A stretch of 64,000 nt of DNA from Bombiscardovia coagulans (lineage in GTDB: Bacteria; Actinomycetota; Actinomycetes; Actinomycetales; Bifidobacteriaceae): assembly GCF_002259585.1 (NCBI RefSeq), contig NZ_MWWS01000007.1, forward strand, positions 1 through 64,000. The letters run 5' to 3'. Shown here one piece after another: positions 3,489 through 20,188 of the stretch (within the stretch, counting starts at the first letter, position 1; every line of letters begins with the position of its first letter). Below the pieces are notes generated by a model. It was not told the origin of the DNA. It did no database searches and worked only from the letters and a program-made list of their open reading frames with translations. Made by a program: the position numbers and the translations under genes.

Positions 3489-6400
3489 TCAGACCTCGCG
3501 AACCCAGAAGTTCCCTGACGTACGAGACAGATTGGGATTGTAGTAAGGGTCGTTGTCAATAATTGCCTGATAGCGAGCAGCAAACGTGGCCGATTCTTCC
3601 TCTAAACGGGCCTTTTTCTCGGCATCTTTCACGTCATACCCCCGGGTGAGGGACTCATAGTGATAGAGCTCAACCTCATGGGCCCACACATTATCGCGAC
3701 CCAACTGGTCGTGAACTCTGATGCACAAATCGACATCGTTATAAGCCACAGCCAAATCCTCGTCAAATCCACCCACGGCCTTGAAGTCGTCCGCCTTAAT
3801 CATGCAGCAAGCAGCCGTGACCGCATAATAATTAACGTTTTCCACTAGGCGCCCGAAGTAACCAAGATGAGTACGGGGACAACCTGCCTCGATATGTCCA
3901 GCGACACCGCCGAGTCCCAAAACAATTCCCGCATGCTGGATAGTTTCAATGGGATAGTAGAGCTTAGCTCCAACTAGGCCTACACGCTCCAGCTGAGCAA
4001 ATGAGACCATTCGAGTCATCCAGTGAGGGCTGATGACCTGGGTGTCATCGTTGAGGAAGAGCAGATACTTACCTTTTGCTTTGGACGCAGCGATATTGTT
4101 GATTCGTGGATAGTTGAAGGGAATGTCAATCTCTTCAACACGGAACCTATCCCCCATCTGCTCCTGGTACCGCTGATAGAGATCTCGCATGGCTGGGTGG
4201 GTCGATCCGTTATCTGCAATAATGACTTCATAGTTACTGTAAGTCGTCTTTGCGAGGATGGAATCCATGCAGCGCTCGATATTATCGTAACCATCCTTGG
4301 TGGGGATAATCACTGAGACTAAGTCTTCCTGAGCCACCGGGTAATGGACATTGTAAATACCACTAGGGCCAGCACTCACCACTTCAGCACCTGTTTGCCG
4401 ACGTTCCATGGCTGATTGCAGAGCACGTAAACCAGCATCAGAAGCGTAGTCCTTGGCACCACTACCCGAAGCTGTAGAAGATGCTAACGTTCGCCAGTGA
4501 TAGAGGACCTTAGCAATGTGTTGGATGCGCTCTGCACTGGTATGCTCCACAAAGCGCAGAACCATATCGTAGTCCTGGGAACCTTCATATCCGGCCCGGA
4601 ATCCACCTATCTCGTCGACTATCGACTTACGGTAAACACCTAAGTGGCTGATGTAGTTAGTGGAAAGAAGAAGGTCTGGCGCATAGTCCGGCTTGAAATG
4701 AGGGTCAGAACGGTTACCCTGCTCATCTTCCTTATCTTCGTCAGAGTAAATCAAATCCGTCTGTGGGCATTCGTTGAGCCTCTTCACGACCTCGAAGAGA
4801 GCCTGGGGGGCAAGCTCATCATCATTATCCAGCAAAGCTATAAACTCACCACTAGCAATCTCAAGAGCTGAGTTAGTCGCACGAGAAATGTGACCGTTTT
4901 CCTTGCGGATAACTACCTTGATACGGCTATCTTCCTGGGCATACCGTTCCAGAAGAGGTTGAACTCGAGGGTCTGTTGAGCAGTCGTCAGCCAAGCACAG
5001 CTCCCAGTGGGGATAGAACTGCTGACGGACCGAGCTGACACAGCGGTCAAGCCACTGTGGGTCCACATTGTAGACGGGGACCAGCACAGAAATCACCGGC
5101 TTTTGCTGGAAGTGTTCTATCTGCGAGCGCACCTGGTTCAAATCATACCGCTCAGTACGTTCGATGAGTTTACGGTATGCCTCTCGCTGCTTACGAGGCG
5201 CAAGATACCTGTCACTCAACTGATGGGCCAGACGACGCGGATGGCGCAGGAGGGTTACTTTTTTCATCATCGCAGTAGTACGGGCGAGTGCAGCTGAAGC
5301 AGGCAGGGGCAGCGGTTCAGTTACCTGACCTGATTCTGAACTGAACACTAAGGATGGGTGGTCAGCACGCACGGTTTGATAGGCTCCGGGCTCTACACTG
5401 ATTCTGATCTCGAATCCCACTTCTGCATCGGGCTGGGTATGGAAGGTCATATTAACATCGGGCCGCAGCAGACGACGCATTTCTTTAACCTGAATGCTAC
5501 TACTAGCCTTCAATGAAACATCTGCTGCTTGAGCTCTGTGCTGGTCAACAGCCCAACCCTTAACAAGAATATGGCAACCATCTCGGGAAACACTTACTTC
5601 GTCAATTGAGCCGCTCACCCGCTCATTCTGCCGTTCATCTAAGGGGAAATAGGCAGTAGCAAACGGATCAGTCATCGTGGCATGGGAACCTAGATATGCT
5701 TGAAGAGCTTCTGAGGGTATTGTCAGGGCCTGCCTGCCTTCCCTCACGAAACTGCTGTAGGGTTGCCACAGGGTTGAAAGATTGCACTGCTGCCTAGCTC
5801 GTACGCAGAGGTCTATACCTTTCAAACCAGCTGCAAGATTGGCATTAAAACCGTGTAATGACGTAAATGCTTGGCGGGTAATAAGCATACAGTCTTCGGT
5901 GACCGCGAACATATCGTGGGGCAAAATATCTCGGAAGTAGTAACCAATACCTTGGTCCCACTGTCCACGCATCTCGAACGGCTGTCCTGAACGCATAGCT
6001 CGCAAGGTCACGCCTGCATTATCCACCCGCTGATTGCGATCGAAGATTTTACCGCCGACGATTCCAACACCACTGGGATGGGAATAGTTCACCATCTGTT
6101 CCAGCCACTGGGCACTTTCAGGTTTCAGTCCGTTTACGAAGACCAGTACATCTTCTTGTCTTTCCAGAGCAAGGGCATTGACGTCTTCACTCTGGCAGCG
6201 CACGAATGCAACATTGGAATACTGGGTATGCTGGCGCAAGTACTGGAAGAGTTCATCACTGTAACCTGTAGCGAGCACAGCTACACTGGGCTGCTTGAAC
6301 TTGTAGTCTATTTTGTACGTTCCCAGGTTTTCCATCATGCTGACAGTGCCCTGCATATCCCGGCGCTCTAGCGCTGCCTCAACAGCCTTCTGCCCAGCTT

Positions 6401-7583
6401 CGTATGCGTACATCTTGCTGGTAGGATCACCTGCTACAGAGCTCGCCAACGTGCGCCAATGGTAGAGCATTTTTGCAATATGATGCACCTGCTGGGCTTG
6501 CTCAGTGGCACGTAACACGAAGTCGTAGTCTTGGCTGCCATCATAATCGCTGCTCAGACCACCAACCTGATCCAACAACTGCTTCGAAACAACAACAAAG
6601 TGCGTAATGTAGTTGTGACTTAACAGCAGGTTAGGAGAAAAACCAGGCTTGAAGAAGGGTTCGAAGCGGACCCCCTCCTCAGTCATCTTGTCTTCATCAG
6701 AGTAAAGAAAATCTCTATTGGGATCTTCGTTGATGGCTTTGACCATTTCGAAGAGAGCATTGGGAGCAAGCTCATCATCGTTATCCATGAACCCAACATA
6801 CTCACCAGAAGCTAAGGCTATGGCTGAATTCGTTGCCTCCGCAATACCACCGTTGCTAGAACGCTCTACAACCTTAATACGGCTATCACTGAGCGCTAGT
6901 TCTTGCAGGAGCGGGCGCACGTGTTCCGCTGGCGAGCAGTCATCTGCCAGGCAGAGCTCCCAGCGCGAATACCACTGATTCTGTACTGATGCTACGCACT
7001 TACGCAACCATTGTTCGTCGACGTTGTACACCGGGACTACAATGGAAACCAGTGGATGGAGCTTATAATCCGCTATCTGCTCCTCAGCCTGAGACTGAGT
7101 CATATTCTCATGCTGATCAATCCAACGCTCGTAGAACTCCTGATGGTTGCTCACGTTACGGTGAACTGCGGTCAGGAGGGCACGAAAACCAGACGGCGTC
7201 CAAGCATGAGAAAGATAACTGACAGCAGTTCGTGTTTTGCTTTTTATCTTGTCGGTTTGTATTTGCCGTTCAATCTTGTCTGCATCAAGAACAAGCAGCT
7301 TATCTTCCCCATTGAGGGTAACCTTTACCTTGGCAACCTTCTTTCCTTGGGGAAAAGCCACACTAAAACCAGGACGAACACCGTCTTTCAGCTCATACAT
7401 GCTACTAATTTCGGGGCGGGGATGGCGGCTCACTTCGCACTGTTCATCAGTGGGAGTCATATCCAGGCCTAAGTGGCGCAACTTGTCCACAGCCCAACCA
7501 GTAACGCAGATTTGATGACTCTGGGAATCCTTACGCACCGTGTCAATTTCAATTTGATAGTTCATCGAATTGTGTAACAGCAT
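3489..7583 (-). CDS. Giant glycosyltransferase with four GT2-like domains in two tandem modules
   Basis: Protein of 1364 residues from ATG at 7583, preceded by AAAGGTAGG; an upstream in-frame start at 7631 lies inside the previous gene. The architecture is an internal duplication. Each half has a beta-rich GWAVD domain (residues about 10-115 and 660-760), a GT2 domain with VPVYNVD, LCLADDCS and DNDDELAP (about 178-410 and 830-1070), and a second GT2-like domain (about 430-630 and 1080-1330). The last domain keeps IIPTKDGYDNIERCM, IIADNGST and FLNDDT. The equivalent domain in the first half has VFVNGL where LNDDT should be, so it is probably inactive. Cytoplasmic; likely builds the backbone or repeat unit of a rhamnose-containing polysaccharide. 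Confidence 0.88.
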   Translation of the reverse strand: MLLHNSMNYQIEIDTVRKDSQSHQICVTGWAVDKLRHLGLDMTPTDEQCEVSRHPRPEISSMYELKDGVRPGFSVAFPQGKKVAKVKVTLNGEDKLLVLDADKIERQIQTDKIKSKTRTAVSYLSHAWTPSGFRALLTAVHRNVSNHQEFYERWIDQHENMTQSQAEEQIADYKLHPLVSIVVPVYNVDEQWLRKCVASVQNQWYSRWELCLADDCSPAEHVRPLLQELALSDSRIKVVERSSNGGIAEATNSAIALASGEYVGFMDNDDELAPNALFEMVKAINEDPNRDFLYSDEDKMTEEGVRFEPFFKPGFSPNLLLSHNYITHFVVVSKQLLDQVGGLSSDYDGSQDYDFVLRATEQAQQVHHIAKMLYHWRTLASSVAGDPTSKMYAYEAGQKAVEAALERRDMQGTVSMMENLGTYKIDYKFKQPSVAVLATGYSDELFQYLRQHTQYSNVAFVRCQSEDVNALALERQEDVLVFVNGLKPESAQWLEQMVNYSHPSGVGIVGGKIFDRNQRVDNAGVTLRAMRSGQPFEMRGQWDQGIGYYFRDILPHDMFAVTEDCMLITRQAFTSLHGFNANLAAGLKGIDLCVRARQQCNLSTLWQPYSSFVREGRQALTIPSEALQAYLGSHATMTDPFATAYFPLDERQNERVSGSIDEVSVSRDGCHILVKGWAVDQHRAQAADVSLKASSSIQVKEMRRLLRPDVNMTFHTQPDAEVGFEIRISVEPGAYQTVRADHPSLVFSSESGQVTEPLPLPASAALARTTAMMKKVTLLRHPRRLAHQLSDRYLAPRKQREAYRKLIERTERYDLNQVRSQIEHFQQKPVISVLVPVYNVDPQWLDRCVSSVRQQFYPHWELCLADDCSTDPRVQPLLERYAQEDSRIKVVIRKENGHISRATNSALEIASGEFIALLDNDDELAPQALFEVVKRLNECPQTDLIYSDEDKEDEQGNRSDPHFKPDYAPDLLLSTNYISHLGVYRKSIVDEIGGFRAGYEGSQDYDMVLRFVEHTSAERIQHIAKVLYHWRTLASSTASGSGAKDYASDAGLRALQSAMERRQTGAEVVSAGPSGIYNVHYPVAQEDLVSVIIPTKDGYDNIERCMDSILAKTTYSNYEVIIADNGSTHPAMRDLYQRYQEQMGDRFRVEEIDIPFNYPRINNIAASKAKGKYLLFLNDDTQVISPHWMTRMVSFAQLERVGLVGAKLYYPIETIQHAGIVLGLGGVAGHIEAGCPRTHLGYFGRLVENVNYYAVTAACCMIKADDFKAVGGFDEDLAVAYNDVDLCIRVHDQLGRDNVWAHEVELYHYESLTRGYDVKDAEKKARLEEESATFAARYQAIIDNDPYYNPNLSRTSGNFWVREV

Positions 7584-7590
7584 TAACTGC

Positions 7591-9243
7591 CTACCTTTTG
7601 GGGATAACATGCTGGAGCATCTTGCGCACACGCAAGATGCAACGAACGAATGGATTATTCATAAGGCAATGCCATCTGTCTAGCTGTCGAGCTTGGACGA
7701 TCTGGCGATGTCGAATTTCTTGAGCAAGCTTGCTAGCAACTGCTGGTGGAATGTGAGAGAGAGGGAAGACTTGAGCTCGTACCGACATCTGCCCGACTCC
7801 TACTGGAGAAGTAATATACACTTGAGGGTCCATCTGCAAGAAGAAGTAGACACCCTCATAGTCGACATCTGCATTGGTACTTATCTCTAGACGCCCTGCT
7901 CCCTGGTGTTTGACTTCCAATCCAGCTATGAGACAGGGCTGTTCACCAAAGTCAACACGCGTAACCTTCTGCCCTTCACACTGGAAAGACAGATGAGTTT
8001 CTGCGCCTAGAGGATATGCGTGTGGGGTGAGATTAACAGCCGTCATCTGCTGAGAGTTCCCTAGGAAAACGCGTACCGCCTGCTGGTAAAAGCAAAGAAT
8101 AGGGTCTGCCGCAAACTGGGTTGACTGGTTATAGTCAGCCACCATCTGAGTATGTCTCAAAAGATACGAGTGGTAGGTATCACTCATAGCAAAAGCTTCT
8201 GGACGGTGCTTCTTCAGCTCCTGCATGAGCTGCTTCCAGACCGTGTCTATGTCATATTCTGCGATAAACCGCTCACGGTGCTGGCTCTGGAAAGCACAAG
8301 CAGCCTGATACCCTTCAACGATTTGCTGGGCAAGCACCGATGGCTCAACCTCAGTAGCTGCATGCTCTTGCATGACTTCGACCAGGGAAGGGGCCTGGCC
8401 CTTGGATCGGCCTGAGAAGTTGAAATAAGCGGTTCGCTCAAAGTTGTCTTCGTTGAGATAGCCCGGTCCACCAAAACGATCGTAGAGGAAGACTGGCACT
8501 CCTTGCACAAGGCAGTACTGAACAGTCTTGCCAATCGACACCACACAGTCATACTTATCTAGCAATTCTGGGGACGTTGGCTGCGACTGTTGACCTACTA
8601 CATCCTTGAGGACATCAACCCTCAGTCCTTGTCCACGTAACAGCTCTGCTGCCTGCAATAGTTCCTCAGGAGCATGGTTAGAGACAATAAGCACCGCTTC
8701 CAGCTTGTCCCGCATCCGATGAGGGGTAGTACTGTACGCCGTCGGAGCTGGGTTAGGGTATAGGGCAAGCTTATCTCGCCTCTCGAAAAATGCTTGCTGG
8801 GCATCGAGAGTGCCTTGCGCATTGAACACTATCATGTCCGCCAACCCGTCCTCAAGGCCATACATGTAGGGCTGCTCAAGGTGGACTTCCCGATAGGGTG
8901 ACATATGTGAAAAAATGAAGTGAGGCCGCTCAACTGGCCCTTGTGCCAGCTCATCAATCAGCACACGAGGTAGTACCTCATGCTGAACCCAGACTAAGTC
9001 AAAATCTGTTAGGTGTAACTCGTTACAGGAGGCACTGGCGCTAGTAAGAACCTGAATACCAGCATCTTCAACAATCTTGAGCATGGGGTCAGCAGCTACC
9101 CAAGCATAAATGACTACTTGGTACCCTTGAGACTGCAAGTACTGCGCTAGCTCGAAGGCCTGAACTTCGCTGCCGCCTATATGTACTAGGGTGCTCTGAG
9201 TAATCAGAACCCTCTGCTTCCCACCTTGTGCAGCTGAGCTCAT
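7591..9243 (-). CDS. GT-B fold glycosyltransferase (GT4-like)
   Basis: Protein of 550 residues. The N-terminus has a Rossmann-type GT4 start, RVLITQSTLVHIGGSEVQAFELAQYLQSQGYQV. Centrally, CVVSIGKTVQYCLVQGVPVFLYDRFGGPGYL resembles the nucleotide-sugar site of GT-B enzymes. The last 150 residues are predicted beta-rich with a basic C-terminus and no clear membrane helix. The ATG overlaps the stop of the ABC ATPase gene in a TAATG, and its own stop lies 7 bases before the giant glycosyltransferase, so the three are translationally coupled. It probably acts in the same polysaccharide pathway. The exact family is uncertain. Confidence 0.7.
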   Translation of the reverse strand: MSSAAQGGKQRVLITQSTLVHIGGSEVQAFELAQYLQSQGYQVVIYAWVAADPMLKIVEDAGIQVLTSASASCNELHLTDFDLVWVQHEVLPRVLIDELAQGPVERPHFIFSHMSPYREVHLEQPYMYGLEDGLADMIVFNAQGTLDAQQAFFERRDKLALYPNPAPTAYSTTPHRMRDKLEAVLIVSNHAPEELLQAAELLRGQGLRVDVLKDVVGQQSQPTSPELLDKYDCVVSIGKTVQYCLVQGVPVFLYDRFGGPGYLNEDNFERTAYFNFSGRSKGQAPSLVEVMQEHAATEVEPSVLAQQIVEGYQAACAFQSQHRERFIAEYDIDTVWKQLMQELKKHRPEAFAMSDTYHSYLLRHTQMVADYNQSTQFAADPILCFYQQAVRVFLGNSQQMTAVNLTPHAYPLGAETHLSFQCEGQKVTRVDFGEQPCLIAGLEVKHQGAGRLEISTNADVDYEGVYFFLQMDPQVYITSPVGVGQMSVRAQVFPLSHIPPAVASKLAQEIRHRQIVQARQLDRWHCLMNNPFVRCILRVRKMLQHVIPKR

Positions 9244-10469
9244 TACGAAAGCCTAACTTTGACCTTTGGGTGCGTCATACTTTGGTCGTACAGTTTGGCC
9301 TTCCTTATCTGGAACTGGTACACCGAAGACTGCTTCAGTAGGAGATCATCTCCGCTGGCAGCTGCAATATTAACGTGATAGTCACCCGAAGCTAGCACGT
9401 TCTCAATACTAAAGAGCATCCGGTGCTTACCCTTGGTGAACGTCTCCTGGTCACCATTAATTTTGTTTGACGTAGCTAAGGCAACCCTACCCTGCTGGTC
9501 GATCAAATTAATAGCGAAGATACCCCTCTTGATATCTCTGGAACAGTCAAAGGTGATATCCAAGTCGAAATCTTCGTTAATGTTGAGCAGCTGGGTTTCT
9601 TCCTTGCCCACCATAGCTTTGACATCAACAAGTTTAATGCCGTTACCTTGCTCTAGACGAACTGCTTCGTTATCCTTTTGCACCACCTTTTGCTGTTGCT
9701 CAAGGAAGTATTCGGAATAAGCATTGGCCACGTCGTCAGGCAAGCCGTACTTGGCGATAACACCATCTTGAATAAGCATGGCTTTGTTGCAGAACTTGCG
9801 AACATCGCCCATAGAGTGAGTGACCAGAATAATGGTCTTTTTCTTCCTCTTAGCTTCGAAGAAATAATCTTGGCACTTCTTTTGGAAGGCCTCATCACCG
9901 ACAGCCAGAACCTCATCCAAAACGAGAATGTCGCCTTGGGACTTAATCGCTACAGAGAAGGCAAGACGGACCTGCATGCCAGAGGAATAGTTTTTGAGCT
10001 TTTGCTCCATGAAGTCACCAAGCTCAGCGAAATCGACGATATCATCATACATGCCGTCAATCTCATCCTTGGTGAATCCGAGCATAGCGCCGTTCAAATA
10101 GACGTTTTCACGCCCAGTTAATTCTGGATTAAAGCCAACACCTAACTCGATGAAAGGCACCAGCTTACCGTTTACCTGTACTGAGCCAGAGTTAGGAGTG
10201 TAGATCTGGGAGATGATTTTGAGCAAGGTGGACTTGCCAGAACCGTTCTTGCCAACGATTCCGAAAAAGTCACCTTTTTTGATTTCAAAAGAGACATCCT
10301 TCAAAACATGCTGGAGGGTATAGCCTGTATTACCGCGCACCATGTTAAAGAGGGCACCTTTAAGACTGTTGGTCTTCTCGTGCGGAAGCTTAAAGTCTTT
10401 CGACACATGCGATACCCGTAATGCCACATCTTCAGGTAACTCTTTGCTTGTTCTCTTGACCAAACTCAT
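9243..10469 (-). CDS. Polysaccharide ABC exporter, ATP-binding protein (Wzt/TagH-like)
   Basis: Protein of 408 residues. Walker A is GKNGSGKS (residues 73-80), the signature YSSGMQ begins at 161, and Walker B ILVLDE is at 181-186, followed by VLAVGDEAF, typical of polysaccharide and teichoic-acid exporters. Residues about 270-400 form an extra C-terminal beta domain like the Wzt substrate-recognition domain, which in characterised systems reads a modification at the non-reducing end of the chain. It powers export with the permease encoded immediately upstream (stop TAA abuts this ATG). The extra domain suggests the exported glycan carries a specific terminal cap. Confidence 0.9.
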   Translation of the reverse strand: MSLVKRTSKELPEDVALRVSHVSKDFKLPHEKTNSLKGALFNMVRGNTGYTLQHVLKDVSFEIKKGDFFGIVGKNGSGKSTLLKIISQIYTPNSGSVQVNGKLVPFIELGVGFNPELTGRENVYLNGAMLGFTKDEIDGMYDDIVDFAELGDFMEQKLKNYSSGMQVRLAFSVAIKSQGDILVLDEVLAVGDEAFQKKCQDYFFEAKRKKKTIILVTHSMGDVRKFCNKAMLIQDGVIAKYGLPDDVANAYSEYFLEQQQKVVQKDNEAVRLEQGNGIKLVDVKAMVGKEETQLLNINEDFDLDITFDCSRDIKRGIFAINLIDQQGRVALATSNKINGDQETFTKGKHRMLFSIENVLASGDYHVNIAAASGDDLLLKQSSVYQFQIRKAKLYDQSMTHPKVKVRLS

Positions 10470-11297
10470 TTATACCAACTCCGCAAAGAACTTAGACTTG
10501 GCGGTAAAGAATTTAAGGCCGCCAATGAAAATCAGGAGGGTGAAAACAACCGGCCAGCAGGCAATAAAGAAATTGCTCTCCCACTGCCACAAGGTAGGAT
10601 TGGCAGGAGAAATTAACACATGTCGTGCGTCCTGCACAATTTGAGCCACAGGGTTGAGGAGGAGGTCTAGCTTGGCGTAGACCGGCCCCATGGCACCAGC
10701 TTTAGAAGAAATCATGCTAATCGGGTAAATGATCGGGGTTGCATAAAAGCCAGCCTGCGTTACCACTTCCCAAATTGGGTTCAAATCGCGCAGGTTTACG
10801 TAGAGCGCAGACAGGAAGAAGGCAATGCCTAGAGCCAGCAGGTATAGTTCGAAAACTATAGGAATGATTAACAAATTCGACCATGAGGGACGAACACCAT
10901 TCACCAAGGCAAAAATGATGACCACAATAAAATTGAACCCGAAGTTAATCAGGGCACTCATTGATGAGGCCACAACAATCACATACTTAGAGAAATGAAT
11001 TTTGCGGAGAAGATCACCATGCCCCACGATGGAAAGCATGCCTCCAGTGGTTGTCTCGTTAAAGAAGTTCCACAAGATGATGCCCAGCAACAAAGCCACA
11101 GTAAAGTGAGGGACGTCAGCACCAAAGCGCATAAAACGAACGAAAACCACATACATGATGGCAAAGAGCATGAGCGGCTTCAAAACTGACCAGAGGTAGC
11201 CCAAAATTGACTGCTGATAACGAAGTTTGAAGTCTGTAGAAACCATGGCCTTCAGCAGCAGCCGGTTCTTCTTAGTGAAAATCTCAGTGATTTTCAA
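10470..11297 (-). CDS. Polysaccharide ABC exporter, permease (ABC-2 type, Wzm/TagG-like)
   Basis: ABC-2 family permease of about 275 residues with six predicted membrane segments. The N-terminus reads KITEIFTKKNRLLLKAMVSTDFKLRYQQSILGYLWSVLKPLMLFAIMY, the diagnostic start of Wzm/TagG permeases. I place the start at TTG 11297, because GAGGAGAA lies 5 bases before it and family members start here; ATG at 11324 (284 residues) is in frame but lacks a ribosome binding site. It forms the channel with the downstream ATPase and exports the lipid-linked polysaccharide. First gene of a five-cistron run ending at 3489. Confidence 0.88.
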   Translation of the reverse strand: MKITEIFTKKNRLLLKAMVSTDFKLRYQQSILGYLWSVLKPLMLFAIMYVVFVRFMRFGADVPHFTVALLLGIILWNFFNETTTGGMLSIVGHGDLLRKIHFSKYVIVVASSMSALINFGFNFIVVIIFALVNGVRPSWSNLLIIPIVFELYLLALGIAFFLSALYVNLRDLNPIWEVVTQAGFYATPIIYPISMISSKAGAMGPVYAKLDLLLNPVAQIVQDARHVLISPANPTLWQWESNFFIACWPVVFTLLIFIGGLKFFTAKSKFFAELV

Positions 11298-11398
11298 TAG
11301 ATTCTCCTCGATTGATGGATACATCTGTCAGCGGCGACACTTGTGTGCTCGTTACAATACCAACCGCTGAGCGTAATACTTCCGTAGGACTTGCAAGC

Positions 11399-12289
11399 TC
11401 AGACGAGCTTTTTGACCATAATCTTGTTATTGGCTACATCCAATAAGTGCTGCCCGTATGGTGATTTGCCATACTTACGAGCAGACTCAACTAACTGTTC
11501 ACGGGCAATCCAACCGTTTTCATAAGCGATCTCCTCCACCACTGCTATCGGTAGCCCTTGAGCGCGTTGCACCGTACGGACAAATTCACTTGCCTGATAG
11601 AGCGAGTCCATTGTACCCGTATCCAACCACGCATAGCCACGACCCAAGGTTTGCACTGTCAAAGAATCATCCTCTAAGTACATCCGGTTGAGGTCAGTAA
11701 TTTCCAGCTCGCCACGGGCAGAAGGCTTAACCTGCTGAGCAAACTCACTTACTCGACTGTCATAGAAGTACAATCCAGTTACTGCATAATTGCTAGCCGG
11801 ATGCTCCGGCTTTTCGGTAATACTGATGACCTTATGTTCGTCATTAAACTCAACCACACCATAGCGTTCAGGATCGTCGACGTAATAACCGAAGACCGTA
11901 GCGCCCTGAGCAGCTGAAGCAGCTGAACGCAAGACACGTCCAAGACCGTTGCCGTAGAAGATGTTGTCTCCCAATACTAGAGCGCAAGGCTCACCGGCAA
12001 TAAACTCTTCGCCCAAGATGAACGCTTGAGCTAAACCGTCTGGGCTAGGCTGGACCTTGTAGGAGAACTTGACACCATACTGTTCTCCACTACCAAGCAG
12101 CCTCTGGAAGTTAGGAAGATCAGTCGGAGTCGAGATGATCAAAATATCACGAATACCGGCCATCATAAGCACGCTCAAGGGATAGTAAATCATCGGCTTG
12201 TCGTACACCGGCAGCAACTGCTTAGAAGTTACTGTCGTCAGCGGATAGAGGCGGGTGCCTGAACCACCCGCCAGAATAATGCCTTTCAT
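11399..12289 (-). CDS. rmlA: Glucose-1-phosphate thymidylyltransferase
   Basis: Protein of 296 residues, the normal RmlA length. The start [18 protein letters not shown] is the nucleotidyltransferase signature, followed by [17 protein letters not shown] and [11 protein letters not shown]. It makes dTDP-glucose from glucose-1-phosphate and dTTP, the first step of dTDP-L-rhamnose synthesis. ATG at 12289 is preferred over the upstream frame extension because AAAGGTATTAGG precedes it and homologues begin here. It lies downstream of rmlCD on the same strand. Confidence 0.96.
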
Positions 12290-12421
12290 AGGCCTAATAC
12301 CTTTCTTGCTGTTCACATGCCCACACATGCAGCCACAATTAGCAACAGCATACTGTACACCACAAGCAAGTTACGTGCCTACTGCCGGTATCTGTGCTGT
12401 TTTTGCGCAATAAGCTGTCAG

Positions 12422-13876
12422 CTAAGCCTGCTGCTGGGAACGAATGTAGTCCGCCATGGATTGTTCCCAATCAGCCGGATGGAATCCGGTTTCCTCTATT
12501 TTACGCAAGGCTAAGGCCGAATGGACTGGACGAGGTGAGACTGGATCGGTAGCCTGAGCATAATAGTCGGCGGTAGAAACTGGTCGAACCTTATCACCAT
12601 TGCCATTCGTCTGCTCAAAGACGGCACTCGCTATTTCAGCCCAGGAGTGAATAGAGCCAGAGCCAGTGAGATTGTATGTGCCATAGGGTGCGCCCGTATC
12701 CAGCAGATGGAAGATTGCTTTGGCCATGTCAGTCGTAAAGGTCAAACGCCCATACTGGTCGTCAACTACAGTAATTTCGTTCAGGGGCTGCTCTGGATCA
12801 GCTACCCTGTCAGACAGGCTCATCATGGTCTTCACGAAGTTATGCCCTTGGCCGATCACCCAACTTGAGCGCAGAATGTAGTGTCGAGGTGCACCCTCAG
12901 CTGCTATGTCACCGGCGGCCTTGCTTTGCCCATAGACACCGAGAGGAGCAAAATCCTCTTCTTCAGTGTGTTCTTCGGTTTGTCCGTCAAACACATAATC
13001 GCTGGAAACATGAACAAGGGTAATGTGGTGCTCCCTAGCCACCTGAGCCAAGAGCGCCGGACCTTGTGCATTAGCTTTCCAAGCCACAGGCCTGCCTTCT
13101 TGTGTTTCAGCCTTATCTACTGCTGTGAAGGCACCGGCATTGATAATGGTGCCATACAATGACCAGTCGAAGCGCGCATAAGCAGCTGGGTCAGAAAAAT
13201 CAAAACTATCGATATCAGTAAATTCAAATCCCTGCAAGTGGTGCTCTTCCACATACTGCTGAATAGCCTGCCCGAGCTGACCGCGAGAACCGGTCACCAG
13301 AGTGCGCAGCGGAGCCATGGGCTGTACGTCCTTAAGCATGGGATGCTGCAAGTCAGCAGCAGAGCGCTCGCTAGACTCCAGAGGGATAGGCCAATCGATG
13401 TGGAGATCCGGATCAGCCAAATTAACAAACGTGTAAGTTTTCTTTTGCTCTAACGACCAGTGGGCGTTGACGAGATATGTGTAAACAGTGCCATCATGCA
13501 AGGCTTGGAAGCTGTTACCAACACCTCTGGGAACAAAAATAGCCTTAGACGGATCAAGCCTAGTGGTGTACACCTGTCCGAAACTCTCTCCTGGGCGCAA
13601 ATCAACCCAAGCGCCGAAAATTTCTCCAGCGGCGATAGAAATATACTTGTCCCAAGGTTCAGCATGGATACCACGGGTAACGCCCTTGCTTGCATTGAAG
13701 CTGATGTTGTTCTGCACAGGACCGAAATCTGGAAGACCCAAGGCTGTCATCTTGGCACGCTGCCAGTTTTCTTTAAACCACCCTCTATTGTCGCCATGCA
13801 CCGGCAAATCAAACACCAGCAGGCCGGGAATATTAGTCTCTTCGACCTGTAGTTCTCGTTCAAACTCTAAAGGCAT
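12422..13876 (-). CDS. rmlCD: RmlC-RmlD fusion: dTDP-4-dehydrorhamnose 3,5-epimerase / reductase
   Basis: Protein of 484 residues joining two pathway enzymes. Residues about 1-190 are the RmlC cupin: IPGLLVFDLPVHGDNRGWFKENW, TRGIHAEPWDKYI and AWVDLRPGESFG. Residues about 195-484 are the RmlD short-chain dehydrogenase: LVTGSRGQLGQAIQ, VSSDYVFDGQ and the YGQSK Tyr/Lys pair. Together they turn dTDP-4-keto-6-deoxyglucose into dTDP-L-rhamnose. The usual GFAHGF region of RmlC reads GVGNSF here, so a His is replaced by Asn. ATG at 13876 follows GGGAGAGG; an ATG at 13903 is also in frame. This fusion is, from general knowledge, characteristic of bifidobacteria. Confidence 0.93.
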   Translation of the reverse strand: MPLEFERELQVEETNIPGLLVFDLPVHGDNRGWFKENWQRAKMTALGLPDFGPVQNNISFNASKGVTRGIHAEPWDKYISIAAGEIFGAWVDLRPGESFGQVYTTRLDPSKAIFVPRGVGNSFQALHDGTVYTYLVNAHWSLEQKKTYTFVNLADPDLHIDWPIPLESSERSAADLQHPMLKDVQPMAPLRTLVTGSRGQLGQAIQQYVEEHHLQGFEFTDIDSFDFSDPAAYARFDWSLYGTIINAGAFTAVDKAETQEGRPVAWKANAQGPALLAQVAREHHITLVHVSSDYVFDGQTEEHTEEEDFAPLGVYGQSKAAGDIAAEGAPRHYILRSSWVIGQGHNFVKTMMSLSDRVADPEQPLNEITVVDDQYGRLTFTTDMAKAIFHLLDTGAPYGTYNLTGSGSIHSWAEIASAVFEQTNGNGDKVRPVSTADYYAQATDPVSPRPVHSALALRKIEETGFHPADWEQSMADYIRSQQQA

Positions 13877-13900
13877 CCTGTATACAGCCTCTCCCGCCGG

Positions 13901-14022
13901 CATCCGGCGTACTCCGCTACTCGTGATAGCGTCGATTCAATCTTCTTACAGCAGACTTTCACCGCCGTGTCATAGTTAAGCAGTATCCGGCGTCAAACAC
14001 AAAAGCCGTGTCAACGCCGGAT
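13901..14022. repeat. Three copies of ATCCGGCGT around rmlB/rmlCD, two forming a hairpin
   Basis: ATCCGGCGT occurs at 13902-13910 and 13985-13993, and its reverse complement at 14014-14022. The last two can fold into a 9-base-pair stem with a 20-base loop just after the rmlB stop. There is no T tail, so it is more likely an attenuator, an mRNA-stability element or a protein site than a terminator. Confidence 0.55.
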
Positions 14023-14026
14023 GTAG

Positions 14027-15061
<1,035 letters not shown>

Positions 15062-15123: not shown

Positions 15124-16614
15124 ATGAGTTACAGAGGAGAGCTAGTGAGAATACATCTACGCCGCTCGATAGCTGACAGTCGCCTTGCTCTGTCTCTTTT
15201 TTTCGTTCTAGCCATACTCCAAGGTTCCTACTTCATCAGCGCTATCGGACCCCTCACCATGCCTGATACGGACATGAATGCTAATACGCCCTATGCCATT
15301 GCAACAGGTCAGATTTTCAACTTGCCTCACGTAGAGACTGACAAGTTCGGTAACCACACGAAGGTCCAATACATCTCTGGTGACGCCCGCCTACTCAAAC
15401 GCACAGGCCGTATCAATACGCTCGTCGATACCGTCGTCAGCAGCCCCCTGTCTCCAAGTAGTAAACAGGAAAAACAGCGAGTGATTGACCACGAGCCACA
15501 GTCAACCATTACCGTACCAACATCACATATTGCAAACCGTTCCAACCAGTACTTCCCGCTGGTGTATCTGCCTCAAGCAGCAGGCATTCGCATCGCCCTC
15601 TGGCTTAATAGTTCACCTTACCAAGTCTGGCAGGCAGGGCGCATAACTAATTTCATCGTTTTCCTAACACTGATGGGCCTTGCTATTGTGATCATCCCTA
15701 GGGCCAAAACTATGGTTGCTTGTATCGCCGTATTTCCAATGACCGTATTTATAGGGTCAAGCCTCATGGCTGATGCTTTCTTCATCAGTATCAGCGCATG
15801 CTTTCTAGCGTTGTTCTTCCGGGTCAGCATCCGAACTACCCCTGCCACGACCCTGCAAGTAGTGTGCCTGGGCATCTTGTCAATATTGTTGTTCTATTCA
15901 AAACTGGTCTATGTGGCCCTTGCCATACTGCTACTGGCTCTGCCGCATCATGTGCTCAGCCGTAAACGCAAGGTGATCACTATAGGGACTTGCGCAGTAG
16001 TTGCTCTACTTTCATACGGTTTATGGAGCTCAAAGTATGCCGGAATGCTAGCAATAACTAATATTGAAAATAACGTTCACTGGATGCGTCACAACCCCTT
16101 CACGCTCGTAAAGACAATAACGTGGAACATCATCTTCTTACCTACAAAAGTTTCCAGTGACCAGCTTTTAACAATGCAGGCAACCATCATCTTAGGCCTA
16201 GCCTGGCTCTACCTATTACAGACACTGCCCAAACATCAAGCACCAGCACACGAACAGCTATCGAGCTGGGTAAGCAGAAACCGCTACATCATACTGTCCG
16301 TTGTGGTATTTCTCATATGCCTGTATCTCACATTTACAGCGCTGTGCCTTACCTGGAATGCTATGCCTACATTTGACAGCACTACAGAAATACAAGGATT
16401 TCAGGGACGCTACATTCTACCTCTTTTGCCGCTTTTAGTGTGTGTAGCTTTCCATCCAAAAAGGCCATCCCTACGGAGCGCAGGCGCTCCATCTTCTCCG
16501 GACACTGAAACCCAGGAAACCGATAGGAGATCAGAACCGGCTCACAGCCACAAGTATGCCCGTAAGCAAAAATCAGGCACCTTCCAATTTCTCCACCGCA
16601 AATCCCGCAAGTAG
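15124..16614 (+). CDS. Polytopic membrane protein, DUF2142-like
   Basis: Protein of 496 residues with a first membrane helix near residues 20-42, a long extracellular loop (about 45-150) and some eight to ten later helices. The loop ends in NQYFPLVYLPQAAGIRIA, which resembles the Y-P-P-L-Y-Y-l-P pattern of DUF2142 proteins, a family often found in polysaccharide clusters and thought to contain GT-C-like enzymes. AAGGA lies 8 bases before the ATG. The last 60 residues are hydrophilic and basic. It is divergent from rmlB and overlaps the next gene. A role in modifying or assembling the surface glycan is inferred from location and topology. Confidence 0.65.
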   Translation: MSYRGELVRIHLRRSIADSRLALSLFFVLAILQGSYFISAIGPLTMPDTDMNANTPYAIATGQIFNLPHVETDKFGNHTKVQYISGDARLLKRTGRINTLVDTVVSSPLSPSSKQEKQRVIDHEPQSTITVPTSHIANRSNQYFPLVYLPQAAGIRIALWLNSSPYQVWQAGRITNFIVFLTLMGLAIVIIPRAKTMVACIAVFPMTVFIGSSLMADAFFISISACFLALFFRVSIRTTPATTLQVVCLGILSILLFYSKLVYVALAILLLALPHHVLSRKRKVITIGTCAVVALLSYGLWSSKYAGMLAITNIENNVHWMRHNPFTLVKTITWNIIFLPTKVSSDQLLTMQATIILGLAWLYLLQTLPKHQAPAHEQLSSWVSRNRYIILSVVVFLICLYLTFTALCLTWNAMPTFDSTTEIQGFQGRYILPLLPLLVCVAFHPKRPSLRSAGAPSSPDTETQETDRRSEPAHSHKYARKQKSGTFQFLHRKSRK

Positions 16615-18475
16615 TGCGACAACGGTACAGACAAGCTACCATAGGAACATGCAGACCGCTCGGCAACTCCATAAAGCACAAGATGGTCGACCATATCATG
16701 CAATTGCTGGATGTCTGGTCATCCTTACCCTTATCATCCTTACCCTGGGAAGACTAGCGATGTCTGTCACCCTGCACATGTGGTTTGCTGCAAATCAACG
16801 GGCAGACGATGGGCTGCTCATGAGTTATTCAATGTCGGATTATCCGTCAACCCATGACCCTTACAAGCTAGCAAAAAACCAAGGATATGGCTTCTTTTTA
16901 CGTGTAGTTTCCTGGAGCAAGGTCAACATCGACATAGTGTATTTTGGTGTTTGGCTCTTAGCTGCTGTCTTGACTGCTTGCGCATTGTATTCGTTTTTCC
17001 ATATTCTTTGGCTTTCACTCATCAGTTACTGCTACGTGCTCTGGAACCCGCTAGCATTCGAAAATTGGCTAGGAACGAGACTGTATCGCAATTCCCTCAT
17101 ACCGCCCTCTCTCTTCATCCTCATCGCCTTACTCATGCTGTACCTAACTTCTGGTCAGCATCCCAGAGTAAAAAGAAAATCACGAACAAGTCAGCTACCT
17201 TGGAAATCTACTACCGCTACTGTCATACAGGTGTCCGGGAGAGTCATTTTTTACCTGCTTCTTGGTCTAGTTTTCGCGTTCGTTTACGACTTAAAAGAAG
17301 ATTCAGCATGGCTCATACCCATGTTTCTCTTTGTCGTTGGCATCAAACTTGTTCAAGTCATTCAACAAACGAGGGTACAGGTTTGGAAAAAGTGCCTAAC
17401 CCTGCTCCTAACCCTACTGCCACTAGTAAGTGCCGCCGGATGCCTACAAGCTGTCAGACTCTACAATGACCATAACTTTGGTGTTGCCTTACTCAATACC
17501 CGAACTCAAGGGGCAATGGCAGGATTCACTTCCCGGGTTTACCAGGTAGCTAGCCCACATCAATCACCGCGTATCTGGGCTACGGCTGATGCCCTCGATG
17601 CAGTAGAACGAGTCTCTCCCACCTTGCGTTCCCAACCAGCCATTATGGATTACATCAGGCATCGTGACTTCGCAGCGCCTTCCATTTACACACACCCTAT
17701 AGAAGGTGACTTCTTGACCTGGCAATTGATAGGTGCCACAGACAGCAGTTTGGGAATGGATGATGAAGGCCGGGTACAAAGTTTTTATCAAAAGGTCAAC
17801 AAAGAAATTGATACCGCCTTCGAGAAGGGTGACCTGATACGCAGCAGGAAAATCCGACTGTCTTCTTCCCTGCCAGGACGAACACCCCAGCAAATTACGA
17901 GCTTAATCGGCCCCTCAGCAGATATGCTCGCTGACACCATAACTCTTGGAAGGTATTATGAACACTCCAAGGGAAAGAATGTATTTGAGAACAGTAAGAA
18001 ACCAATTCCCAATAAGAAGGATCTCCAGCAACTCAATATTGACGTTCACGACCCAAATCCACAAGTGCTGCCTTGGTTCACCAGCCAGCAGGCAAAAACA
18101 GTGGCTCAGGTTGATGTAGTCCTCTATAGGATTATTAACATCTGCCTATGTTTAGTTTTCCTGTACAACGTTTTTTGGGCTGTGAAACGACTAGTACATC
18201 GTCAATGGCGAGATACATTAGCCGTTGGCCTCAGCCTTGCACTCATAGCGTACGCGTTTATCTATGCCTTCGCAGTCTCCTGGTTCATCGAATACACCGC
18301 GAACTTGTACTTCCAGTTCTTCTTTACTGTTGGCTCAATTACACCATTGGTAATAGTAGCTCTCTTACTTGCTGCTGGAAGTCTGGCACGAAAGCAAGAG
18401 ATAGAGTCAAGTAAGCAATGCAAACACGCTCAAACGCTTTCGCAACCTAAGCACAAGCGACAAGCTGGCTTTTAA
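16556..18475 (+). CDS. Large polytopic membrane protein of the polysaccharide locus
   Basis: Protein of up to 639 residues with roughly ten membrane helices. After the first helix it has an external segment FAANQRADDGLLMSY; an acidic pair in the first external loop is typical of GT-C glycosyltransferases that use lipid-linked sugar donors. A soluble external domain (about residues 300-520) follows the middle helices, and two or three helices close the protein. ATG at 16556 overlaps the previous gene by 59 bases and has no ribosome binding site; ATG at 16649, preceded by AGGAAC, is a good alternative. Its stop overlaps that of the convergent lysozyme gene. I do not recognise a named family. 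Confidence 0.6.
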   Translation: MPVSKNQAPSNFSTANPASSATTVQTSYHRNMQTARQLHKAQDGRPYHAIAGCLVILTLIILTLGRLAMSVTLHMWFAANQRADDGLLMSYSMSDYPSTHDPYKLAKNQGYGFFLRVVSWSKVNIDIVYFGVWLLAAVLTACALYSFFHILWLSLISYCYVLWNPLAFENWLGTRLYRNSLIPPSLFILIALLMLYLTSGQHPRVKRKSRTSQLPWKSTTATVIQVSGRVIFYLLLGLVFAFVYDLKEDSAWLIPMFLFVVGIKLVQVIQQTRVQVWKKCLTLLLTLLPLVSAAGCLQAVRLYNDHNFGVALLNTRTQGAMAGFTSRVYQVASPHQSPRIWATADALDAVERVSPTLRSQPAIMDYIRHRDFAAPSIYTHPIEGDFLTWQLIGATDSSLGMDDEGRVQSFYQKVNKEIDTAFEKGDLIRSRKIRLSSSLPGRTPQQITSLIGPSADMLADTITLGRYYEHSKGKNVFENSKKPIPNKKDLQQLNIDVHDPNPQVLPWFTSQQAKTVAQVDVVLYRIINICLCLVFLYNVFWAVKRLVHRQWRDTLAVGLSLALIAYAFIYAFAVSWFIEYTANLYFQFFFTVGSITPLVIVALLLAAGSLARKQEIESSKQCKHAQTLSQPKHKRQAGF

Positions 18476-20055
18476 TAACGAACCCCATACCAAGCAGTAC
18501 CCTCATTGCACCAACCGAGAGAAACGAGGTGGTTGCGCTCGTTGGCATTTACTGTAAAGAGGTGCTGCCCAGAATTTGGATTGTATACACGATACACTGG
18601 CACTGCTCCGCCAGACCGCCAATTGAGACCTTCCTGCCTCCAACGATACTGTGTCAGCATGTTGTACTCATTACCGTTCATAGTGTATAAGTGTCGTCCC
18701 TGGTTCAACGAGTATAAGCGGTATACTGGCGCTCCGTCTGCAGGGGCAACCCATGCCACACCCTCAGCATTCCAACCTTTCCCAGACAGCTGACGATACT
18801 CAACTGGATTGGAAGTCAGGAAGTGCTCGCCTGAGTTTGGGTTGTACACGCGATAGATGGGCATTTCATTTGTGGCAGCAACCGTTGCTACACCGCAAGC
18901 ATTCAAATCAACGTGACCATTAATGCCTGCAACGAGTCCAGTACTGCTGTACTGCCAGCAACGCTCATTCCTAGGAAAGTTAAACAAGGGAGTGGGACCA
19001 TAAGAGGCTACCCAATCGGTTTTAGCATGAATACTGGGAGCATTGAGAGCAGTATTGAGATAGTACGGGTATGAATATACCGACAAGTTATTGTAGCCGG
19101 CAGCTCGCAAGCGTCCATACCAAGCATTCACTATACTGTCGTACACTGCTGGGTTGGTTGGATGGGAATGACCCGTCCAAGCCCACGGTTCCAAATCATA
19201 GTAGACCGGATAGCTTAAATTACTGGGACTAACGCCCGCCCTACGGAGAAGGTCAACTAGACTATCACCTTCCATAGCAGCAGTAGCCGCGTCATAAGAG
19301 TATGAGTATAGGTAAATTCCGAAAGGAATACCGAGCCGCTTGCACTCGTTGATGTTACGCAAAGCTTGAGTATCGAAACCGTTGCCCCACCCGTAGCCGA
19401 TGCGAATAATGGCACCTTCGACTCCGGAAGCTTTGGCTACCTCCCAGTTAATTGTTTTTTGCCACTGCGAAACATCAACAACTGCGTGAGCTTGTTGCAC
19501 AAAGAGCTGTCCATTGGACTGGAAGAAAGCCTGGCTTCCGTTGTGCCGGCCCCAGTGTGCTCCGTACTCATTGTTGGGAAGACCAGCAGTGTACGTATAC
19601 GGACGATTTGAAAGTTGCAAGGAGGCGGGACGAACACTGGGCTGACTTGTGTGTTGAGTACTGTCGACCTGGCGCTCGACTTCGTCAATTGGTAACGGTT
19701 CAAATGACTCTCCGTGAGTCTTAGCCAATGGGTCGGCTGGCTTTGCAGCTGTTCCCACGATCGCAGGATCAGTGATGAGCGCGCCCGTCTCCACATCTTT
19801 TATCTGACCAGATGATTCTACTGCGAGTTGAGGAGACACTAGAACAGCTTCAGAGGATACCTGAGGAGAAACTGACTGAGGTAGTTGCTCAGCCTGAGCC
19901 TTGTGATCGACACTTTGATCAGCCACACTGAGAACTGTGTTTGCTTCAGCAAAGGATGGATGTGACTTGTTACTTACCGTGAGTGAAGTCGCCATAGGCA
20001 TGGCAGCTAAACCAGCCGAAGCAAGCAAAGCGCAAACTTTACTGAATAAAATCAT
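18472..20055 (-). CDS. Secreted GH25 lysozyme with C-terminal DUF5648-type repeats
   Basis: Protein of 527 residues. A signal peptide covers about residues 1-27 and a low-complexity linker runs to about 150. The GH25 domain (about 190-395) has the family aspartate in AVVDVSQWQ (D194), the region GAIIRIGYGWG and the catalytic PVYYDLEPW (D287, E289). The last 130 residues hold three repeats of the type VYRVYNPNSGEHFLTSNPVEYRQLSGKGW, matching DUF5648, often found on secreted wall hydrolases. It would cleave the MurNAc-GlcNAc backbone of peptidoglycan. Its stop codon overlaps the convergent membrane-protein gene by a few bases. GGGGGAT precedes the ATG. Confidence 0.9.
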   Translation of the reverse strand: MILFSKVCALLASAGLAAMPMATSLTVSNKSHPSFAEANTVLSVADQSVDHKAQAEQLPQSVSPQVSSEAVLVSPQLAVESSGQIKDVETGALITDPAIVGTAAKPADPLAKTHGESFEPLPIDEVERQVDSTQHTSQPSVRPASLQLSNRPYTYTAGLPNNEYGAHWGRHNGSQAFFQSNGQLFVQQAHAVVDVSQWQKTINWEVAKASGVEGAIIRIGYGWGNGFDTQALRNINECKRLGIPFGIYLYSYSYDAATAAMEGDSLVDLLRRAGVSPSNLSYPVYYDLEPWAWTGHSHPTNPAVYDSIVNAWYGRLRAAGYNNLSVYSYPYYLNTALNAPSIHAKTDWVASYGPTPLFNFPRNERCWQYSSTGLVAGINGHVDLNACGVATVAATNEMPIYRVYNPNSGEHFLTSNPVEYRQLSGKGWNAEGVAWVAPADGAPVYRLYSLNQGRHLYTMNGNEYNMLTQYRWRQEGLNWRSGGAVPVYRVYNPNSGQHLFTVNANERNHLVSLGWCNEGTAWYGVRY

Positions 20056-20188
20056 CGATCCCCCATATACCTGTATGCGTTATAAGTACGTGCAAGCATT
20101 CGTTTTACAAATCACAGGTTAATGGAAATAGATGGTTGATGGTTCTGGAACACTAAGGCACTACAGGACTTTCATAAATACCCTGACA

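Follow-up and report, generated by a model that had tools for sequence, protein, structure and literature searches.

A giant glycosyltransferase of Bombiscardovia coagulans that probably joins two EpaN/EpaO-like neighbours in one chain and retains a domain lacking its active-site motifs

A 64,000-nucleotide stretch of the genome of Bombiscardovia coagulans (RefSeq assembly GCF_002259585.1, contig NZ_MWWS01000007.1, positions 1 to 64,000; hereafter the window) encodes a giant protein of glycosyltransferase family 2 (GT2). The protein consists of two homologous units, each comprising a beta domain, a GT2 domain (a1, a2) and a second, GT2-like domain (b1, b2). Phylogenetic analysis indicated that it originated by fusion of two old, paralogous neighbouring genes, and b1 was found to lack active-site motifs that b2 retains. 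The giant is probably a single-chain rhamnose-polysaccharide polymerase derived from fused neighbours of the EpaN/EpaO type, which are related to WsaE, with b1 as a non-catalytic scaffold or acceptor part. By analogy with described systems we infer rhamnose as the sugar, the division of labour between sites, and the lack of catalysis and the scaffold or acceptor role of b1.

Results

Domain organization of the giant protein

Residue numbers refer to P0001, the 1380-codon open reading frame (ORF) that opens at position 7631; the protein read from its ATG comprises residues 17-1380. The ATG at 7583 is the likely start, since it matches the start of a 75%-identical relative in genome G007, the frame of which begins MLLHNSMNY. 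A first-pass annotation of the sequence had placed the gene correctly at 3489-7583; its strand is minus, and the plus strand over the same interval is broken by stop codons.

The two halves, ordered alike as beta domain, GT2 domain a and GT2-like domain b, aligned over 648 columns with 34% identity (E 1e-115). This likeness is far above generic GT2 similarity and bears out the homology of the halves that the first-pass annotation had reported. All motifs that it had listed were located in P0001: GWAVD at 45 and 692, VPVYNVD at 199 and 851, DNDDELAP at 283 and 935, VFVNGL at 497 (b1) and FLNDDT at 1192 (b2). Pfam found Glycos_transf_2 in three stretches of the giant (a1, a2 and b2), not four. 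In a nine-row alignment (A1), ADD, DNDD and QDYD of a1 and a2 were invariant, as were DNGS, NDD and ND.D of b2. Consistent with the earlier proposal of three apparently active sites, a1, a2 and b2 thus appear intact in their motifs.

In the beta domains, Gly, Trp, Arg, Gly and Phe were invariant across the 10 rows of alignment A5. No Pfam family matched the ten domains consistently, six families having one match each, and hhalign gave no kinship with the C-terminal domain of Wzt (probability 0.1%).

Loss of motifs and purifying selection in the b1 domain

Profile comparison with hhalign identified b1 as a homologue of intact b domains (probability 99.8%, E 9.6e-30). The b1 domain of the window matched no Pfam family at E 0.1, though PF00535 was still detected in 6 of the 20 sequences in the b1 alignment. 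A sequence search of the PDB with b1 returned two marginal matches (E 0.007 and 0.016).

A census of b domains was based on 71 intact b and 33 b1 rows; this census and the tree described below were made without the frameshifted copy of Bifidobacterium indicum (L051/G022) and the redundant copies L052, L165 and L169. Residues of P0001 were given roles in metal binding, nucleotide binding or catalysis that we take to follow from general knowledge of GT2 enzymes. In the column of the metal-binding Asp (1196), Asp was present in all intact b domains and in none of the b1 rows, of which 26 carried Gly. Asp 1299 of the second motif was likewise present in 71 of 71 intact b domains and absent from all 33 b1 rows (Gly in 31), and none of the 33 contained DNGS. 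The b1 rows had conserved residues of their own: 31 carried Glu at 1273 and 30 carried Asn at 1233, and Asp 1301 was retained in 32. Fourteen further b1 rows, from 12 Lactobacillales genomes and genomes G971 and G791, all lacked DNGS and Asp 1299.

Selection on b1 was estimated from ratios of nonsynonymous to synonymous substitution rates (dN/dS) in ten close pairs. Nine pairs were computable and gave dN/dS values for b1 of 0.035-0.142, which are rough in four of them because dS exceeded 1. Eight pairs allowed the same estimate for a1 and gave 0-0.045, so that b1 was less constrained than a1. Compared with a2 plus b2, b1 was looser in two of three fully comparable fused pairs and tighter in the third. 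By this measure, b1 is under purifying selection, and an ongoing decay of the domain was not borne out. The first-pass annotation had counted b1 as one decayed site: its active-site motifs are indeed lost and the metal Asp is missing from its alignment column, but the same losses are common to enterococcal first genes and the domain is maintained by selection. No account of an inactive glycosyltransferase (GT) domain was found in the literature on proteins of this kind from enterococcal polysaccharide antigen (EPA) loci or of the WsaE type, in a search that covered listings and sections of a few papers and excluded most subscription journals.

Origin of the two units

A maximum-likelihood tree of 104 a domains was constructed, which included 17 fused proteins and 40 single-unit rows from 35 loci selected among many more; the set of second halves omitted the partners in G105 (a 408-amino-acid frame) and G120. 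A branch with support 100/96 separated off 33 first-unit a domains, 17 of them from fused proteins, 15 from enterococcal genomes and one from a metagenome-assembled genome (MAG) of the Eubacteriaceae. At lower support (94/88), five single units and most second genes of enterococci fell together with the second halves of the fused proteins. Second units overall did not form one group, as the second gene of the MAG fell with single units of Acetobacterium and L163 stood apart. A tree constrained to place the 34 a domains of fused proteins in a single clade was rejected (log-likelihood lower by 84.5 units; approximately unbiased test, p-AU 0.00012).

Because first halves grouped with the first genes of Bacillota and a joint clade of both halves was rejected, the tree argues for a fusion of two old paralogous neighbours, and on this phylogeny the duplication behind the two paralogues must predate the fusion. 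The tandem duplication within the gene that had been proposed from the sequence was therefore abandoned, each half having a counterpart encoded by a separate gene in Bacillota.

Distribution of fused and two-gene forms

The central part of the giant matched 10 of the 27 genomes of the genus at 1e-40. A family sample of 151 genomes contained 16 with full-length matches, which were single chains in all except the frameshifted G022. The carriers with species names were Bifidobacterium callitrichos, B. minimum, B. simiiventris, B. simiarum, B. aquikefiri and B. indicum. In the latter (L051), a frameshift inside b1 cuts the giant into overlapping frames at 9977-11653 and 11592-14090 (559 and 833 codons); this split may represent a sequencing error, decay or a secondary fission.

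In Enterococcus termitis, two further Enterococcus records and the Eubacteriaceae MAG, the halves were encoded by two adjacent genes. The first frame in the three Enterococcus records (L061, L053 and L050) measured 1056-1088 amino acids and began with a methyltransferase domain; the second frame of the Enterococcus and MAG pairs measured 711-730 amino acids. In the MAG (L055), the first gene (704 amino acids) had no methyltransferase and a stand-alone gene of 749 amino acids with a methyltransferase domain (7650-9899) lay between wzt and the pair, so that fusion of this domain to the first gene is not universal among pairs.

In the genus of Enterococcus sp. 5H, the long first gene was detected in 14 of 22 genomes, each time adjoining a match to the partner, which in G105 sits in the 408-amino-acid frame. 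Four other genomes (G104, G108, G118 and G119) carried other, intact units, and the remaining four gave no match at E 1e-60. Four Enterococcus loci (L174-L177) combined an intact partner with a different, divergent and intact GT2-GT2 unit (frames of 813-826 amino acids); no first gene bearing a methyltransferase was matched there.

Across 395 Lactobacillales genomes, 45 matched the b1 profile at 1e-12. Strong matches (best E at or below 8.1e-66) were confined to 25 of these, in frames of 1056-1097 amino acids that each lay beside a second frame of 711-730 amino acids, and all 13 enterococcal partner units that were examined whole had an intact b domain. The other 20 genomes gave weaker matches (best 7.0e-37), and in the six inspected (G104, G108, G118, G119, G269 and G491) the b domains were intact. 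The profile also matched 36 of 391 genomes in the MAG's class. Inspection there covered the matches with fetched loci and ten fetched regions, in which the b1 profile outscored the intact-b profile in at least three genomes (the MAG, G971 and G791), each with an adjoining intact unit. Among 396 Actinomycetota genomes, 42 matched at 1e-12, strongly in the genome of the window only (4.5e-106); the next-best match (8.5e-35) was in the range of intact b domains. Every carrier examined had an intact partner for the b1 unit, either within the same chain or as the adjoining gene. A first unit with a degenerate b and a second unit with an intact b, a criterion derived here, thus describes the giant as well as the pairs. 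The fused form was not noticed among Bacillota frames of the genomes sampled.

A plasmid search with b1 returned 43 records, all below 60% identity and one covering 80% of the query; those listed were mostly annotated as glycosyltransferases. Single GT2-GT2 units of the giant's kind were present in many phyla. In the class of the MAG, the b domains of L245 (3519-5285, minus-frame numbering), L249 (2618-4477, minus-frame numbering) and L239 had altered DXD regions (MDANI, LDPNV, LNGTV) with the Asp of the second motif retained, and it is possible that these are independent pseudo-domains. A frame of 24,448 amino acids in G1118 was discarded as most likely derived from masked stretches (1396 of the 3813 bases of locus L253 are N).

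Predicted structures

AlphaFold2 models were made per half from the sequence of the window and its related loci. Intact b domains were kept out of the alignment for half 1, and the b1 model accordingly rests on sequences of the b1 family. Mean predicted local distance difference test (pLDDT) scores were 87.8 for half 1 and 89.5 for half 2. The model of b1 showed a GT-A-like core, with pLDDT above 83 in most ten-residue blocks, and lacked the helix-strand pair that b2 has between the DNGS strand and the helix preceding the DXD strand.

The best structural match of the a domains was K4 chondroitin polymerase (KfoC, 2z86; Z 27.9 for a1 and 27.0 for a2). In each half, Pasteurella heparosan synthase 2 (8vh7) aligned across the two GT domains (Z 24.7 and 25.7), with a root-mean-square deviation of 22.8 that suggests a different arrangement of the GT domains in the models. 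Both enzymes depend on UDP (uridine diphosphate)-sugars and have two active sites. Like the giant, they carry tandem GT-A domains in one chain; identity to the giant, which has four GT domains, was 24-25% over one domain for 2z86 and 13-14% over both for 8vh7. Matches to polypeptide GalNAc transferases (Z up to 23.5) were limited to the b2 part, and none of the 50 matches listed for half 1 began within b1. Since GT domains filled these lists, the fold of the beta domains was hardly probed by them.

Gene context and feature coordinates

The genome of the window comprises 1.74 Mb in 15 contigs. In all eight Bifidobacterium loci compared, the window included, the giant follows wzm-wzt, directly or one gene on, and rml genes were present in the stretch compared in seven of the eight. 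No rml gene was found in the compared stretches of L048, L053 and L179.

Features of the locus are listed in Table 1. The gene upstream of the giant, which resembles glycosyltransferase family 4 (GT4), ends 7 bases ahead of the giant's ATG. A gene of this type lies between wzt and the giant in three of the eight Bifidobacterium loci (the window; L178, 5602-7251; L048, 8232-9848), and in the other five the giant starts within 200 bases after wzt. The rmlC-rmlD gene is a second fusion in the locus, and its parts matched separate stretches in L050, L054 and L055. Positions 15124-22042 of the window encode a DUF2142 protein, an ORF without Pfam match (E 0.1), a protein combining glycoside hydrolase family 25 (GH25) with DUF5648, and a DUF6541 protein. 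In the available sections of one study, Enterococcus faecalis EPA clusters are described as also holding a GH25 (EF2174; PMC7188991).

Table 1. Coordinates of the giant protein, its domains and neighbouring genes in the window (domain residues in P0001 numbering).
Feature	Position	Strand	Description
Giant GT2 protein	3489..7583	minus	1364 amino acids from ATG plus stop; ORF scan
Beta domain 1	7287..7556	minus	26-115; GW ... R ... GF; strands in predicted model
GT2 domain a1	6312..7064	minus	190-440; ADD, DNDD, QDYD intact; PF00535; residues invariant in 9 of 9 rows
Putative pseudo-GT domain b1	5664..6296	minus	446-656; b2 homologue without DNGS, metal Asp and second-motif Asp
VFVNGL	6126..6143	minus	b1 equivalent of the b2 DXD region FLNDDT; alignment
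LKGIDLC	5805..5825	minus	b1 equivalent of b2 YNDVDLC, Gly replacing Asp 1299; alignment
Beta domain 2	5337..5615	minus	673-765; model and alignment
GT2 domain a2	4362..5105	minus	843-1090; motifs intact; Pfam, alignment, structural matches
GT2 domain b2	3507..4334	minus	1100-1375; DNGS, NDD, ND.D intact; Pfam, alignment, structural matches
GT4-like ORF	7591..9243	minus	550 amino acids; Pfam matches below cut-off
wzt-type ABC (ATP-binding cassette) ATPase with Wzt_C	9243..10469	minus	PF00005, PF14524
wzm-type ABC permease	10470..11324	minus	PF01061
rmlA-like nucleotidyltransferase	11399..12328	minus	PF00483; name rmlA by context
rmlC-rmlD fusion	12422..13903	minus	493 amino acids; PF00908 at 22-192, PF04321 at 200-489
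rmlB-like dehydratase	14027..15046	minus	PF16363/PF01370; name rmlB by context

Discussion

EPA rhamnan synthesis and WsaE are described here from the available sections of the papers cited. EF2181 (epaN) and EF2180 (epaO) come after the ABC genes EF2183 and EF2182 (epaL and epaM) (PMC2766626). They are proposed rhamnan-polymerising enzymes, homologous to the C-terminal domain of WsaE, and EF2182/EF2183 are proposed to export the EPA rhamnan, a hexasaccharide repeat of 2- and 3-linked rhamnose (PMC7188991). Disruption of epaB and epaN altered EPA immunoreactivity (PMC4931226). WsaE of Geobacillus stearothermophilus, encoded after wzm-wzt, combines alpha-1,3- and alpha-1,2-rhamnosyltransferase activities with a capping 2-O-methyltransferase (PMC2943079).

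Like EpaN and EpaO, which are described as WsaE-related GT2 proteins encoded by adjoining genes immediately behind ABC permease and ATPase genes, in a cluster with dTDP (deoxythymidine diphosphate)-rhamnose genes, the giant has paired beta-GT2-GT2 units after wzm-wzt, and the Enterococcus loci examined had the same layout as the EPA pair. EpaN and EpaO differ in being two genes, whereas the giant is one chain without the N-terminal methyltransferase of the Enterococcus first gene. WsaE shares with the giant the presence of multiple GT domains per chain and the position of its gene. As described, WsaE is a single unit that carries a methyltransferase and two GT domains, both active; the giant has two units and four GT-type domains, one of them apparently a pseudo-domain, and no methyltransferase, and it is therefore not a protein of the WsaE type in the strict sense.

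The earlier suggestion of a polymerase made in one chain fits this locus. In the proposed mechanism, the adjacent rml genes would supply dTDP-L-rhamnose and the giant would extend a lipid-linked, rhamnose-containing chain on the cytoplasmic side of the membrane. By analogy with EPA and WsaE, a1, a2 and b2 would each add rhamnose in different linkages. The b1 domain would transfer no sugar and instead hold the chain or the complex together, and the finished chain would leave by Wzm/Wzt. Since the giant lacks the enterococcal methyltransferase, chain termination may differ.

Several observations weigh against this proposal. Asp was present at 1194, two columns before the metal Asp, in 23 of the 33 b1 rows (all 71 intact b domains have Asn there), and a gap beside 1194 in 17 b1 rows leaves the alignment there not beyond doubt. 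Among the 14 further rows, two (L195 and L201) had Asp in column 1196 and one (L193) at 1195. Some b1 domains may therefore, as judged from sequence, keep a weak metal site, and loss of motifs does not prove inactivity. The correspondence of the two halves to epaN and epaO is based on gene order and published description. Pfam found no methyltransferase in the giant, and a query of the enterococcal type found none in the window's genome, an empty answer that proves little. Two of the four Bacillota pair loci had no rml gene in the stretch compared. The rhamnan-bearing Gram-positive genera named in the available sections of a 2025 review exclude Bifidobacterium (PMC12413058), and no described rhamnan of a carrier Bifidobacterium was found in literature coverage that left out most subscription journals.

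Alternatively, a polymerase with this architecture might build its chain from other sugars, and the rml genes might serve another purpose. The occurrence of single GT2-GT2 units in many phyla would fit such a role, donor specificity cannot be read from sequence, and rml genes were missing from the compared stretches of L048, L053 and L179. Against it, rml genes lie near the giant in seven of eight Bifidobacterium loci, and the literature, in its available sections, attributes rhamnose elongation to EpaN and the polymerisation of rhamnan to EF2181/EF2180. We regard a polymer without rhamnose as rather unlikely.

We judge it unlikely that b1 is itself active, by a metal-independent or altered mechanism that uses the Glu of VTEDC, GYYFR and GxD. 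Conservation of Glu 1273, Asn 1233 and Asp 1301, the GT-A-like core predicted with good confidence, and an Asp at 1194 in most b1 rows or, in two of the 14 further rows, at the metal column would favour activity. However, DNGS and Asp 1299 were missing from all 33 rows, and Asp 1299 from the 14 further rows as well, and the b1 model lacks, relative to b2, one helix-strand pair of the nucleotide-binding part. A recent tandem duplication within the gene, with one b copy now decaying, would account for the shared order and motifs and the 34% identity of the halves but is very improbable, as first-half a domains cluster with separate Bacillota genes (100/96), a single clade of fused halves was rejected (p-AU 0.00012), b1 appears to be under purifying selection with identical losses in both phyla, and the tree would have to be explained by gene conversion or model error.

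The reading of the giant as a fused, EpaN/EpaO-like rhamnose-polysaccharide polymerase has an overall architecture that is a variant of an already known kind. Its surprising parts are the natural fusion and an old, widely kept putative pseudo-domain in a pathway that has been studied in enterococci. From the natural fusion it can be argued that the neighbouring proteins of enterococci act together as one complex, and the giant suggests that a subset of bifidobacteria has a wall polysaccharide resembling EPA. The conserved, inactive-looking b1 provides a specific hypothesis on how multi-site polymerases hold and hand over the growing chain. More tentatively, and with the balance somewhat against it, b1 could be a pseudo-glycosyltransferase dedicated to holding, measuring or regulating the chain as it grows in rhamnose-polysaccharide polymerases of two phyla, including those of EPA-type loci. 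If b1 is such a chain-holding part, it would represent an overlooked module for processivity or coordination in a well-studied cell-wall pathway.

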